DNA from: Candidatus Poribacteria bacterium
GTDB taxonomy: Bacteria; Poribacteria; WGA-4E; PCPOR2b
Direction: 5' to 3'
Assembly (NCBI GenBank): GCA_028819845.1
Contig: JAPPKS010000026.1
Coordinates: forward strand, 14,917 to 78,916
DNA length: 64,000 nt
Shown: positions 53,697-57,107 of the stretch, piece after piece
Position numbering within the stretch: the stretch's first letter is position 1
Layout: every line of letters begins with the position of its first letter
Position numbers and translations under genes: made by a program
The notes under the pieces: generated by a model
Told to the model about the DNA's origin: nothing
Databases searched by the model: none
Seen by the model: only the letters and a program-made list of their open reading frames with translations

Positions 53697-56600
53697 ATGA
53701 ATGCTGACCTTGCTATTGCCCAAATTTTGGTAGGATTGGCCATTGGCCTGAGCACGCTAACCGCAGGTGTATTTGTGTACAGGCGAGCCAGGCGTATACA
53801 GAATCCGGGATTGCTGATAAAAGCCTACGGCACCTGGTTAGCGGGTTTGTTGCTGACGGTTGTGCTGCTTTGGCCGGCGCTGGCATACCTATACATAGAA
53901 CATCTCTGGTTTGTGAGCGTCGGTTACGCCAATATTTTTTGGGGCGTTCTGCAAGCGCGATGGGGACTTTTCGCTAAATTTGCTATTGCAGCGATAGGGT
54001 TTTTGGGACTGAATCTCTTCATTGGGGATAAGCTGTGTCCTATTGCGAGCGACGGCACACGTTGGCCTCGCGAACAAACAAGGCGCTTCTACTGGACCAT
54101 GCTAATCTCGATTGTCTTGGTCGCTTGTTTTCTGGCGATACCGATGATGTTTTTCTGGGACGACTTCATCCGTTACGAAAACCGTGGATTGACTGATGTA
54201 ATCACCTTTGTCTCTCATAATGCGCTCCAAAAAGAACTCGGTTTTTATCTGTTTAATTTTCCCGTCTATCGCTGGGTCAGCCTATGGCTAAAAATTTTGC
54301 TGTGGGTTACGATAGTGATTGTGGCAATCTTGTATAATTTCTACCGCCGGCGGGACGTGAGGGCAACCGTTCGTGTTGAACGGCGGTTTGCCGTGCACGT
54401 TTCTACCCTCTGGCTGGCGTTACTCGGTGTCTCTTTATGCCGGAGCCAGGTTAGCATCTGGAATGTACTATACACCCGTCGAACACCTTGGGGACTCGGC
54501 CGGGTCGACGGGATGGGTTACGTTGACGAGGCGTTGATTGGCACGACTCAAATTTATATGGTCTGCATCGCCGGGATTGGCGTCCTTGTCCTGATTAACA
54601 TGTTTTGGCGGAAACGACTCGTCTGGTATTCCGCCCTAGCAATGTGGGGCTTGAGCTATCTGGTGTTGATACAAGTCTGCCCAATCTTTGTTCATTGGAC
54701 GGAAGTTCGCCCGAATCGAGCGTCGGCGGAAGTGTCCTATCTAAAAAGCCATATTGAATCGACTCGGCAGGCATTTCGGCTAGATCGGATTGTGGAGAGC
54801 AGCCACGTCCAAGGCGCCGCAACGGTAGAGATGATTCAGCGCAACCCTGAAATCAGAGAGAACATCCAGTTGTGGGATCGGCGTGTCCTCTACGAAGTAT
54901 TAAGAGACAAACAAAACATTAAACCGTATTACGAATTCCACCCATACACAGATGTCGATCGGTATTGGATAAATGGAAAGTATCGGCAGGTATTGATTGC
55001 CGCTAGAGAAATCGATATTGATCCAGAAGAACTGCCCGAAGCCCAATATTGGGATAGTCGGAAGATGGTCTATACCCACGGCTACGGAGTTTGTGTTGTT
55101 CCGGTAAATGAATTCAAAATTGAGGGTGGCGATCCAAACTTCTGGGTGCATGGAATTCCTTTGGACTACCCTGAGCAAATCGGTAACCAGCTCCGCGTGA
55201 CAAAACCTCAAATCTACTTTGGCGAATTGGCTAACGACTATATTATCGTCAATACGAAGAGACAGTTGCTTTTTGGAATTGAGTCGGAGATACTAAAAAC
55301 TCTTGACAATGGCAGTTTCTCACAAGACCTGAGACAAGAGTTTGAAGCGCGTGAAATGCCGCTGTCTGAAAATGTCACGATTTCGATTAAAGCAACAGGG
55401 CGCAAATGGTTGATAACGGATAAAGCTGATGAACAGGAATACATTGTCAGTAAGGAAGAAGGGGAACTGAGAATTTATGAACAGGAGCCGTGGTCACTGC
55501 TTAACTTCAAGCGCGAGCAGTGGTTGCGATTTAGCATCGAGTTAAGCTCGCAAATCGAATTGAAGTATCAAGTTGACTTAGACAATGGGTTCCTCTCTAA
55601 CGACCTGCGGCAAAGGTTTGAAACACAACAAACTACGCTGTCCGAGGACGTCGCTGTTTCAATAAAGGAAGAAGGTAGACAATGGCTAATTGTTGATAAG
55701 GACAATGAGCGGGGATACATCGCCAGTAAGGAGGATGGGGAACTAAAGATTTACAAGCAGAAGGAGATAGATCCGGAAGGTGAGGGATTCAGCGGAGAGA
55801 GCGGCGTCGAAATTGGCGGTTGGTTCAGGCGGCTCTGTTTTGCAACACGTTTCGACTTCTGGCGAATAATGTTGTCCAGAAGCCTTACCCCCGAAAGCAG
55901 AATGCTTTTTTGGCGAAAAATTGGAACGCATGACCCTGTCACTGCCGCGACGATTACAGATCGCCTCTCACACATTGCTCCATTTCTGAAATTTGACCCA
56001 GACCCCTATATCGTGATTGGGGATGACGGTAAACTCTGGTGGATGGTCGACATCTACGTCACGAGTCGGAATTACCCGAACGCTAAAGTTTATGTCGATA
56101 CGACAGAACTCGTTGAAAATCCGCCGCTCTATTCTGAACCCGCCTTTGACCGCTTCAACTACATTCGAAACCCCGCCGTTGCGATTGTCAATGCGTATAG
56201 CGGGGAGGTTAATTTTTATCTAACCAAAGCTGAAGAGCCCATTACGGCTGCTTATCAGAGCGCTTTCCCGAATCTTTTCCAACCCAAACATCTGATCCCG
56301 GCGGGTTTGCAGAGCCACCTTCGATACCCGGACTATCTCACCCGCACCCAGGCAGAAGTGTATACCGACTATCATGTAGAGGACGCCCACACATTTTTCC
56401 ACGGTTCTGACCGGTGGAATATCCCCGACGAAACATACTATACGGAAAAGCAAAGGATGGTGCCGTATTATGCGACGTTTAAGTTGCCGGGCGAAATGAA
56501 ATCGGAGTTCGTGAACATGGTGCCCTTTACGCCACCGAAACGGGTCAAGCTCATGAACGCATGGCTTGTCGCACGCAGTGATGGCGCGGCATACGGTCAA

Positions 56601-57107
56601 TTGGTAATCTATCGGCTGCCGACGGAGGCAACTGTCGACGGACCTAGGCAGGTCGAAGAAGACATTGAAAATGCGCTCGCTAACGAGGTTTGGTTCAGAC
56701 AATCAGATGAAAAAGGCGCTCAGGTAATTCGCGGCAATTTGCTTGTGATTCCCGTAGAAAATACCCTGTTTTATGTAGAGCCCATTTATCTCAAGCCCGA
56801 AGACAGCAATCGCGCGCAATTAAAGACGGTTGTTGTAAAAGCTGGCGATCAGTTTGCATACGCGGACAGATTCGATAAAGCCCTGCAGGAAATCTTCGGT
56901 ATTGGTATCGGAGTTGAGCCCGCGGCGAACACTGCGGAGGGGACGTTAGGAGAGTTGCCGACGTTGGCAGACGTGATTCGGTTAGCCAACGAAAAGTTCG
57001 ATCAGTACCTGAAGTTAACCGGCGAGGGAAAACTCACGGAAGCCGCTCAAGAATTTAAAGAGCTTGAGAGGCTGTTGAGGGCATTGCAGGCACAGCAGTA
57101 TCAGTAG
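53697..57107 (+). CDS. UPF0182 family membrane protein with duplicated insert
   Basis: 1136 residues, longer than the typical 900-1000. Seven or so N-terminal transmembrane segments (for example IAQILVGLAIGLSTLTAGVFV, AIAAIGFLGLNLFIG, VCIAGIGVLVLINMFW), then a large hydrophilic domain with UPF0182 motifs: VHGIPLDYPEQ, YFGELANDYIIVNTK, LTPESRMLFWRKI, IAPFLKFDPDPYIVI, FNYIRNPAVAIVNAYSGEV, PGEMKSEFVNMVPFTPPKR, RGNLLVIPVENTLFYVEPIYL. Residues about 520-700 replace a short family linker and contain two 61-residue repeats (536-596 and 628-688). Function unknown in the literature I know. Convergent with the 767-residue gene. Confidence 0.93.
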   Translation: MNADLAIAQILVGLAIGLSTLTAGVFVYRRARRIQNPGLLIKAYGTWLAGLLLTVVLLWPALAYLYIEHLWFVSVGYANIFWGVLQARWGLFAKFAIAAIGFLGLNLFIGDKLCPIASDGTRWPREQTRRFYWTMLISIVLVACFLAIPMMFFWDDFIRYENRGLTDVITFVSHNALQKELGFYLFNFPVYRWVSLWLKILLWVTIVIVAILYNFYRRRDVRATVRVERRFAVHVSTLWLALLGVSLCRSQVSIWNVLYTRRTPWGLGRVDGMGYVDEALIGTTQIYMVCIAGIGVLVLINMFWRKRLVWYSALAMWGLSYLVLIQVCPIFVHWTEVRPNRASAEVSYLKSHIESTRQAFRLDRIVESSHVQGAATVEMIQRNPEIRENIQLWDRRVLYEVLRDKQNIKPYYEFHPYTDVDRYWINGKYRQVLIAAREIDIDPEELPEAQYWDSRKMVYTHGYGVCVVPVNEFKIEGGDPNFWVHGIPLDYPEQIGNQLRVTKPQIYFGELANDYIIVNTKRQLLFGIESEILKTLDNGSFSQDLRQEFEAREMPLSENVTISIKATGRKWLITDKADEQEYIVSKEEGELRIYEQEPWSLLNFKREQWLRFSIELSSQIELKYQVDLDNGFLSNDLRQRFETQQTTLSEDVAVSIKEEGRQWLIVDKDNERGYIASKEDGELKIYKQKEIDPEGEGFSGESGVEIGGWFRRLCFATRFDFWRIMLSRSLTPESRMLFWRKIGTHDPVTAATITDRLSHIAPFLKFDPDPYIVIGDDGKLWWMVDIYVTSRNYPNAKVYVDTTELVENPPLYSEPAFDRFNYIRNPAVAIVNAYSGEVNFYLTKAEEPITAAYQSAFPNLFQPKHLIPAGLQSHLRYPDYLTRTQAEVYTDYHVEDAHTFFHGSDRWNIPDETYYTEKQRMVPYYATFKLPGEMKSEFVNMVPFTPPKRVKLMNAWLVARSDGAAYGQLVIYRLPTEATVDGPRQVEEDIENALANEVWFRQSDEKGAQVIRGNLLVIPVENTLFYVEPIYLKPEDSNRAQLKTVVVKAGDQFAYADRFDKALQEIFGIGIGVEPAANTAEGTLGELPTLADVIRLANEKFDQYLKLTGEGKLTEAAQEFKELERLLRALQAQQYQ
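55302..55484 (+). repeat. Internal repeat unit 1 in the UPF0182 protein
   Basis: Encodes residues 536-596, starting LDNGSFSQDLRQEF and ending GELRIYEQ. It is 37 of 61 residues identical to unit 2 by my count. Confidence 0.8.
55578..55760 (+). repeat. Internal repeat unit 2 in the UPF0182 protein
   Basis: Encodes residues 628-688, starting LDNGFLSNDLRQRF and ending GELKIYKQ. A 31-residue linker separates it from unit 1. Confidence 0.8.

Follow-up and report, generated by a model that had tools for sequence, protein, structure and literature searches.

A translated, probably mobile DNA element of about 213 bp in unrelated protein genes of Poribacteria

Here we describe a repeat of about 213 bp in Candidatus Poribacteria bacterium that, with a probability we put at roughly 0.83, is a non-autonomous mobile DNA element translated as part of any gene it enters. 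Its spread has reached a wide range of unrelated Poribacteria genes, essential ones included, by insertion that is precise and accompanied by a 9-bp duplication. The repeat was met in the window, by which we mean the whole analysed stretch of 64,000 nucleotides of contig JAPPKS010000026.1, where two copies lie in one gene for a UPF0182 family membrane protein. A first-pass annotation, made from the letters alone, had suspected an in-frame mobile coding module that also occurs in unrelated genes, and a profile search of the genome and its relatives, set beforehand as the check on this idea, turned out as predicted: the genome itself yielded 21 copies, distributed over about 18 unrelated ORFs. 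The searches ruled out the contrary outcome, namely a module found in UPF0182 proteins only and conserved in all of their orthologues.

The host gene (53697..57107, forward strand) encodes 1136 aa and matches the PF03699 profile with 623.9 bits (E=5e-187), which places it in the UPF0182 family; orthologues are present in 40/40 relatives searched. Element boundaries were set by the target-site duplications and by the other copies. Unit 1 (55266..55478, forward strand; 105.5 bits in the profile search) comprises 71 codons, LLFGIESE...ELRIY, and is preceded by a candidate target-site duplication, AAGAGACAG (55257..55265, forward strand), placed in the register of the pooled sites described below. 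A 15-codon linker lacking from orthologues, EQEPWSLLNFKREQW (55479..55523, forward strand), leads to unit 2 (55524..55754, forward strand; 97.9 bits), which an 18-bp tandem duplication inside it (IELSSQ/IELKYQ) extends to 77 codons. The last 9 nt of the linker, GAGCAGTGG (55515-55523, forward strand), form the upstream duplication of unit 2, and AAGCAGAAG (55755..55763, forward strand; register from the pooled sites) the downstream one, with 6/9 bases identical. For unit 1 the agreement of AAGAGACAG with GAACAGGAG is weak (3/9), and that of AAGAGACAG with the 9 nt after unit 2 is 5/9.

The duplicated unit reported earlier was confirmed as two copies, with some revision: the 61-residue module is real, but its boundaries were too narrow, the true start lying about 11 residues earlier at the LLFSID.. 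motif, and the identity is about 36/61 by BLAST rather than 37/61. In that search of the genome with unit 1, the best match was unit 2 (E = 6e-19, 59% over 61 residues). An ungapped DNA repeat search did not detect the UPF0182 pair; their likeness is at the protein level, and they are therefore not recent copies.

Both modules and the linker are located between VNT and QKEIDPEG. In the orthologues (29 loci from relatives) no module occupies this position, in line with the earlier suggestion; the most similar empty sites are those of genome G003, YAIVNT-TQKEIDPEG, and genome G014, YAIVNT-RQKEIDHTT. Because orthologues join VNT directly to (T/R)QKEID, the whole stretch of about 164 residues is an insertion. 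Simple duplication of a domain within UPF0182, or a linker of the usual kind peculiar to the lineage, would suit two adjoining copies in a loop that varies in length among relatives, yet this explanation is refuted by the 19 other places in the genome, and we give it practically no credence. It is further contradicted by the orthologues of G003 and G014, which carry one module each at two other positions of the gene, between FWLKGLN and VVTQPQIYY in the former and between VFQK and KDLSFFLFEFPV in the latter, both sites being empty in the other genomes. UPF0182 has been hit in three genomes, each time independently and at a different site, and the pair in the window fits both two separate insertions into the variable loop and one insertion followed by local duplication.

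Within the 4.6-Mb genome, 20 places were recovered with unit 1 as query and 21 with profile A1, which was built from them, all in the sense frame and free of stops. The hosts, whose names were assigned by reading of the sequences, include RpoN (sigma-54), aspartyl-tRNA synthetase (AspRS), an RseP-like site-2 protease, the CtaA/COX15 heme A synthase, an O-antigen ligase, an M23 peptidase, a sensor histidine kinase, a DUF255 thioredoxin-domain protein, a cytochrome, and HEAT and TPR proteins; in AspRS the copy occupies the N-terminal domain, between RERIE and GTINLNLPTGEIEV. The consensus of the module (about 71 residues) reads LLFSID-x-x-x-Q-x-DLDNGxISxxLRQAFENNGIxLSQNVTVSIxxxGSxWLITDxxNxxTYxVRKExxxLNIY. 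Comparison of the unit with Pfam and NCBIfam gave chance matches only, and the best PDB sequence match of profile A1, chlorite dismutase (E=0.14), was likewise set aside as chance. Random insertion with equal survival would put nearly half of the copies between genes; in a six-frame profile search reading through stops, by which decayed non-coding copies could be missed, every copy found in this genome was coding.

The junctions of the element were examined at 68 non-redundant sites with distinct flanks, drawn from 110 units, by matching the 9 bases that precede LLF against the 9 that follow NIY. Identity between the flanks was 41.5%, and the expectation from swapped pairs was 27.8% (z = 8.5). 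This excess is greatest at lag 9, does not extend beyond positions -9 to -1, on either side of which identity is at background, and is also present at third codon positions. This third-position signal, together with a parallel lag-9 register unlike that of edge-strand pairing, makes a protein-level cause unlikely, and the 9-bp target-site duplication is a mark of transposition. The clearest case is a copy in the own genome (L009), where GATCGTGCG precedes and GATCATGCG follows the element with 8/9 bases kept; its protein context is ..VEFQDRA[LLFSV..LEIY]DHAQIPGRV.., and the site is empty, with uninterrupted VEIKESAQVLGKV-type sequence, in genomes G001, G002, G003, G005 and G009. In CtaA the duplication, GTCAGCGGC before and GTTCACGGC after the element, corresponds to V-S-G/V-H-G in the own genome and in G005, and the empty ctaA of G003 reads V-G-G at the site. 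Orthologues of UPF0182, the DUF255 protein, AspRS, CtaA, the cytochrome and others all provide empty sites. Any terminal inverted repeats are no more than weak: the consensus of the 5' end, TTACTGTTTAGC, and the complement of that of the 3' end, GTAAATGTTGAG, show a slight similarity, and this only with a one-base offset. A search of five genomes for an autonomous partner, using a 20-mer of the 5' end, returned element copies, one chance site and no transposon, and no mobilising transposase was identified. Target duplications of 9 bp occur in IS families such as the IS4, IS903 and IS1 types, which the element resembles in duplication length and from which it differs in having neither a transposase nor an identified partner.

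The length of the element, 207-246 bp with a mode of 213, is always a multiple of 3, and since the 9-bp duplication is one as well, insertion keeps the reading frame. The sense frame was open in 110/110 units and the other five in 4, 0, 2, 6 and 0 of 110; with one of six frames open, only sense, in-phase insertions survive. AlphaFold2 was run on unit 1 from an input of just four sequences, the structure prediction drawing on the window and two related loci. It gave a pLDDT of 91.2 and a pTM of 0.77 and predicted an autonomously folding module of one strand, two helices and four strands (beta-alpha-alpha-beta4), in which the element ends form the outermost strands, first and last; in such a fold the termini would lie side by side. 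Foldseek comparison of the model with PDB and BFVD yielded nothing at E<=0.001 (best PDB 0.55, RnlA, TMq 0.50), so that no known fold could be assigned. At host positions flanking the insert, 75% of residues are polar, compared with 53-59% further out, a bias that would arise if insertions were tolerated in loops alone.

We also considered an intein, intron or translational-bypass element, that is, an insert removed after or during expression, which would likewise sit in frame in essential genes at clean sites. Known intein splicing domains are longer than 71 codons, and the ends of the unit in the alignment, L..Y, carry neither a Cys/Ser/Thr nucleophile nor His-Asn; intein models of Pfam and NCBIfam gave no match, with splicing motifs and minimal length both lacking. 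The RNA structure of the element is no better than that of shuffled sequences (z +1.20 and +0.66), and protein-level purifying selection, described below, together with the predicted stable fold, fits a retained peptide. Removal of the insert is thus exceedingly improbable.

All 40 relatives searched carry the module, with 5-41 copies each, and across the phylum Poribacteria it was found in 78/85 genomes (about 860 copies in all, median 10); family group f5 and the majority of f7 lack it. Among the copies listed, a single one (L109; G003:C283:2557-2739) contains a stop codon, reflecting either a truncated host or an assembly error. Two other copies of the same genome are unusual: one (L207; G003:C351) is inserted just behind the Walker A region in a LolD-like ABC ATPase, a surprisingly delicate place for an insert, and the other (L123; G003:C258:14000-17400) is an odd length variant with an internal tandem duplication, WLITRWLITDKTKITDKTK. 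Of 297 Bacteroidota genomes taken as a control, 2 (G361 and G365) gave one weak match each, in a YD-repeat-like protein and a sigma/acetyltransferase-like ORF (L220 and L219; names by reading of the sequences). These two matches are apparently real distant relatives and seemingly in-frame inserts, assembly contamination being possible; two other Bacteroidota matches from the consensus search, in LOG-type proteins (GPGIMEAANRGAFENNGIS), were rejected as chance.

Distant relatives of the domain also occur on the Xenorhabdus bovienii megaplasmid NZ_FO818638.1 (164579-167050; 168976-173424; L215/L221), with two copies in a pentapeptide-repeat protein adjoining a type I polyketide synthase and further fragments in a second large ORF nearby. 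The Xenorhabdus copies may represent an outside source or a wider role of the domain; no pentapeptide-repeat family was found in the own genome, which therefore holds no resident source of the Xenorhabdus type. A search of viral contigs and phages detected no module. Given distant relatives outside the phylum, the domain is older or wider than Poribacteria, and wide dispersal among genes has so far been seen in Poribacteria only.

Four groups of orthologous copies gave dN/dS values of 0.08-0.11, compared with 0.03-0.17 in flanking host codons, and a fifth group, in which two sites are mixed, gave 0.15. The inserts are therefore constrained, with roughly 1-3 times the amino-acid replacement rate of the host; maintenance of the fold explains this constraint most simply, and the insert may instead serve a function in its host. 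Units group by insertion site in a tree (0/200 shuffles as clustered), with AspRS units from three families forming one group (SH-aLRT 80), indicating that sites are inherited. At the RpoN site, families f1 and f2 carry the module and f4, f5 and f7 do not. The CtaA site is filled in f1, f2 and f4 and empty in G003 (L179, G003:C121), and the AspRS site is occupied in the own genome and in f2 and f3 but empty in other f1 genera (aspS L156 of G003, L158 of G005 and L159 of G001). These empty ctaA and aspS sites have filled relatives to either side of them in the family tree; the simplest reading is precise loss, with gene replacement or repeated insertion as alternatives. Nested copies, with one module in frame inside another, were found in rpoN of G003 (L104) and at G002:C191:30400-33600 (L119). 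All copies are diverged, which limits the evidence to past insertion.

Constraint near host levels, an autonomous predicted fold and distant relatives such as the Xenorhabdus pentapeptide-repeat protein beside a polyketide synthase are also compatible with functional domain shuffling, in which a useful binding or regulatory mini-domain was spread by recombination and kept for a job in each host. We nevertheless consider such shuffling unlikely, because ordinary recombination does not make 9-bp junction duplications, because the hosts (sigma-54, AspRS, CtaA, the LolD-like ATPase, HEAT and TPR proteins) share no theme, and because orthologous hosts exist without the module, which even in AspRS and CtaA is scattered unevenly among relatives.

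For the mobile element that we favour, a DDE-type transposase acting in trans may produce the 9-bp staggered cut, after which the inserted peptide would fold by itself and bulge from a surface loop, leaving the host protein working. Purifying selection would then keep the insert foldable or useful, and copies would be passed on vertically, apparently be lost precisely at times, and serve as targets for more insertion; the variable loop of UPF0182 would have received its units by two insertions, or by one with local duplication. Against the mobile element stand the failure to find an autonomous partner or transposase, inverted repeats that are weak at most, the divergence of all copies and the 3/9 duplication of unit 1 in the window. 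Purifying selection of about 0.1 is also stronger than a pure passenger obviously needs, which leaves open a functional role. We tentatively raise a broader possibility: a transposon with a self-folding domain as its cargo and survival strategy, persisting only as translated in-frame loop inserts under selection for the fold or for a shared function, may have shaped essential proteins of the phylum since near its origin, with low-copy relatives in other phyla.

A literature search, whose scope excluded subscription papers and preprints, returned no description of such insertions, on which two main Poribacteria genome papers are silent. Evidence for mobile DNA making protein parts in place has so far come largely from cases of the Rickettsia palindromic element (RPE) type in Rickettsiales, and the Poribacteria element adds to them, from another phylum, a second system that is independent and apparently older. 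It offers filled and empty orthologous sites, a target duplication that has been measured, a fold prediction and a selection regime open to measurement; how an enzyme survives a 74-residue insertion, and when an insert becomes useful, are directly testable in AspRS, sigma-54 or CtaA. For annotation, a module without a Pfam or NCBIfam model is apt to create false domain links among Poribacteria proteins that are unrelated.

Among known systems, bacterial MITEs with open frames (the 107-bp Correia element, ERIC and QMITE of Coxiella) are short, lack a transposase, show target-site duplication and include some in-frame fusions (PMC2229807, PMC5896051). The Poribacteria element has in common with them a target-site duplication of fixed length, 9 bp, but those MITEs are mainly intergenic and have clear terminal inverted repeats, whereas here inverted repeats are at most putative and the own-genome copies found are all coding. 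Palindromic amphipathic repeat coding sequences are described as palindromic and as forming tandem intragenic repeats (PMC2996958); like the present element they are coding units spread among genes, and there is no palindrome here.

The closest parallel is the RPE, to which the first-pass annotation had likened the module. RPEs and their Wolbachia counterparts are, like this element, small, non-autonomous, mobile repeats inserted in frame into many unrelated, often conserved protein genes, and as with RPEs, orthologues of the hosts have empty sites; the gmk product stays active as an RPE host (PMC2229807). The likeness therefore holds for how the element works and not for what it is. RPEs measure 105-146 bp, are palindromic with 12-bp inverted repeats, have a target duplication listed as unknown, and in Rickettsia are found in intergenic regions and RNA genes as well (PMC2229807). 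The Poribacteria element, by contrast, is longer (207-246 bp, typically about 213 bp), has no palindrome or stable stem-loop (RNA fold z +1.2 and +0.7 against shuffles), makes a 9-bp duplication, lies within a gene in every copy that the six-frame profile search found in the own genome, and encodes a predicted globular domain under purifying selection. That it is an RPE or a homologue of one is accordingly very unlikely, and with palindrome and size, two defining features, both failing, we do not file it as an RPE but set it beside the RPE as an element of similar behaviour.
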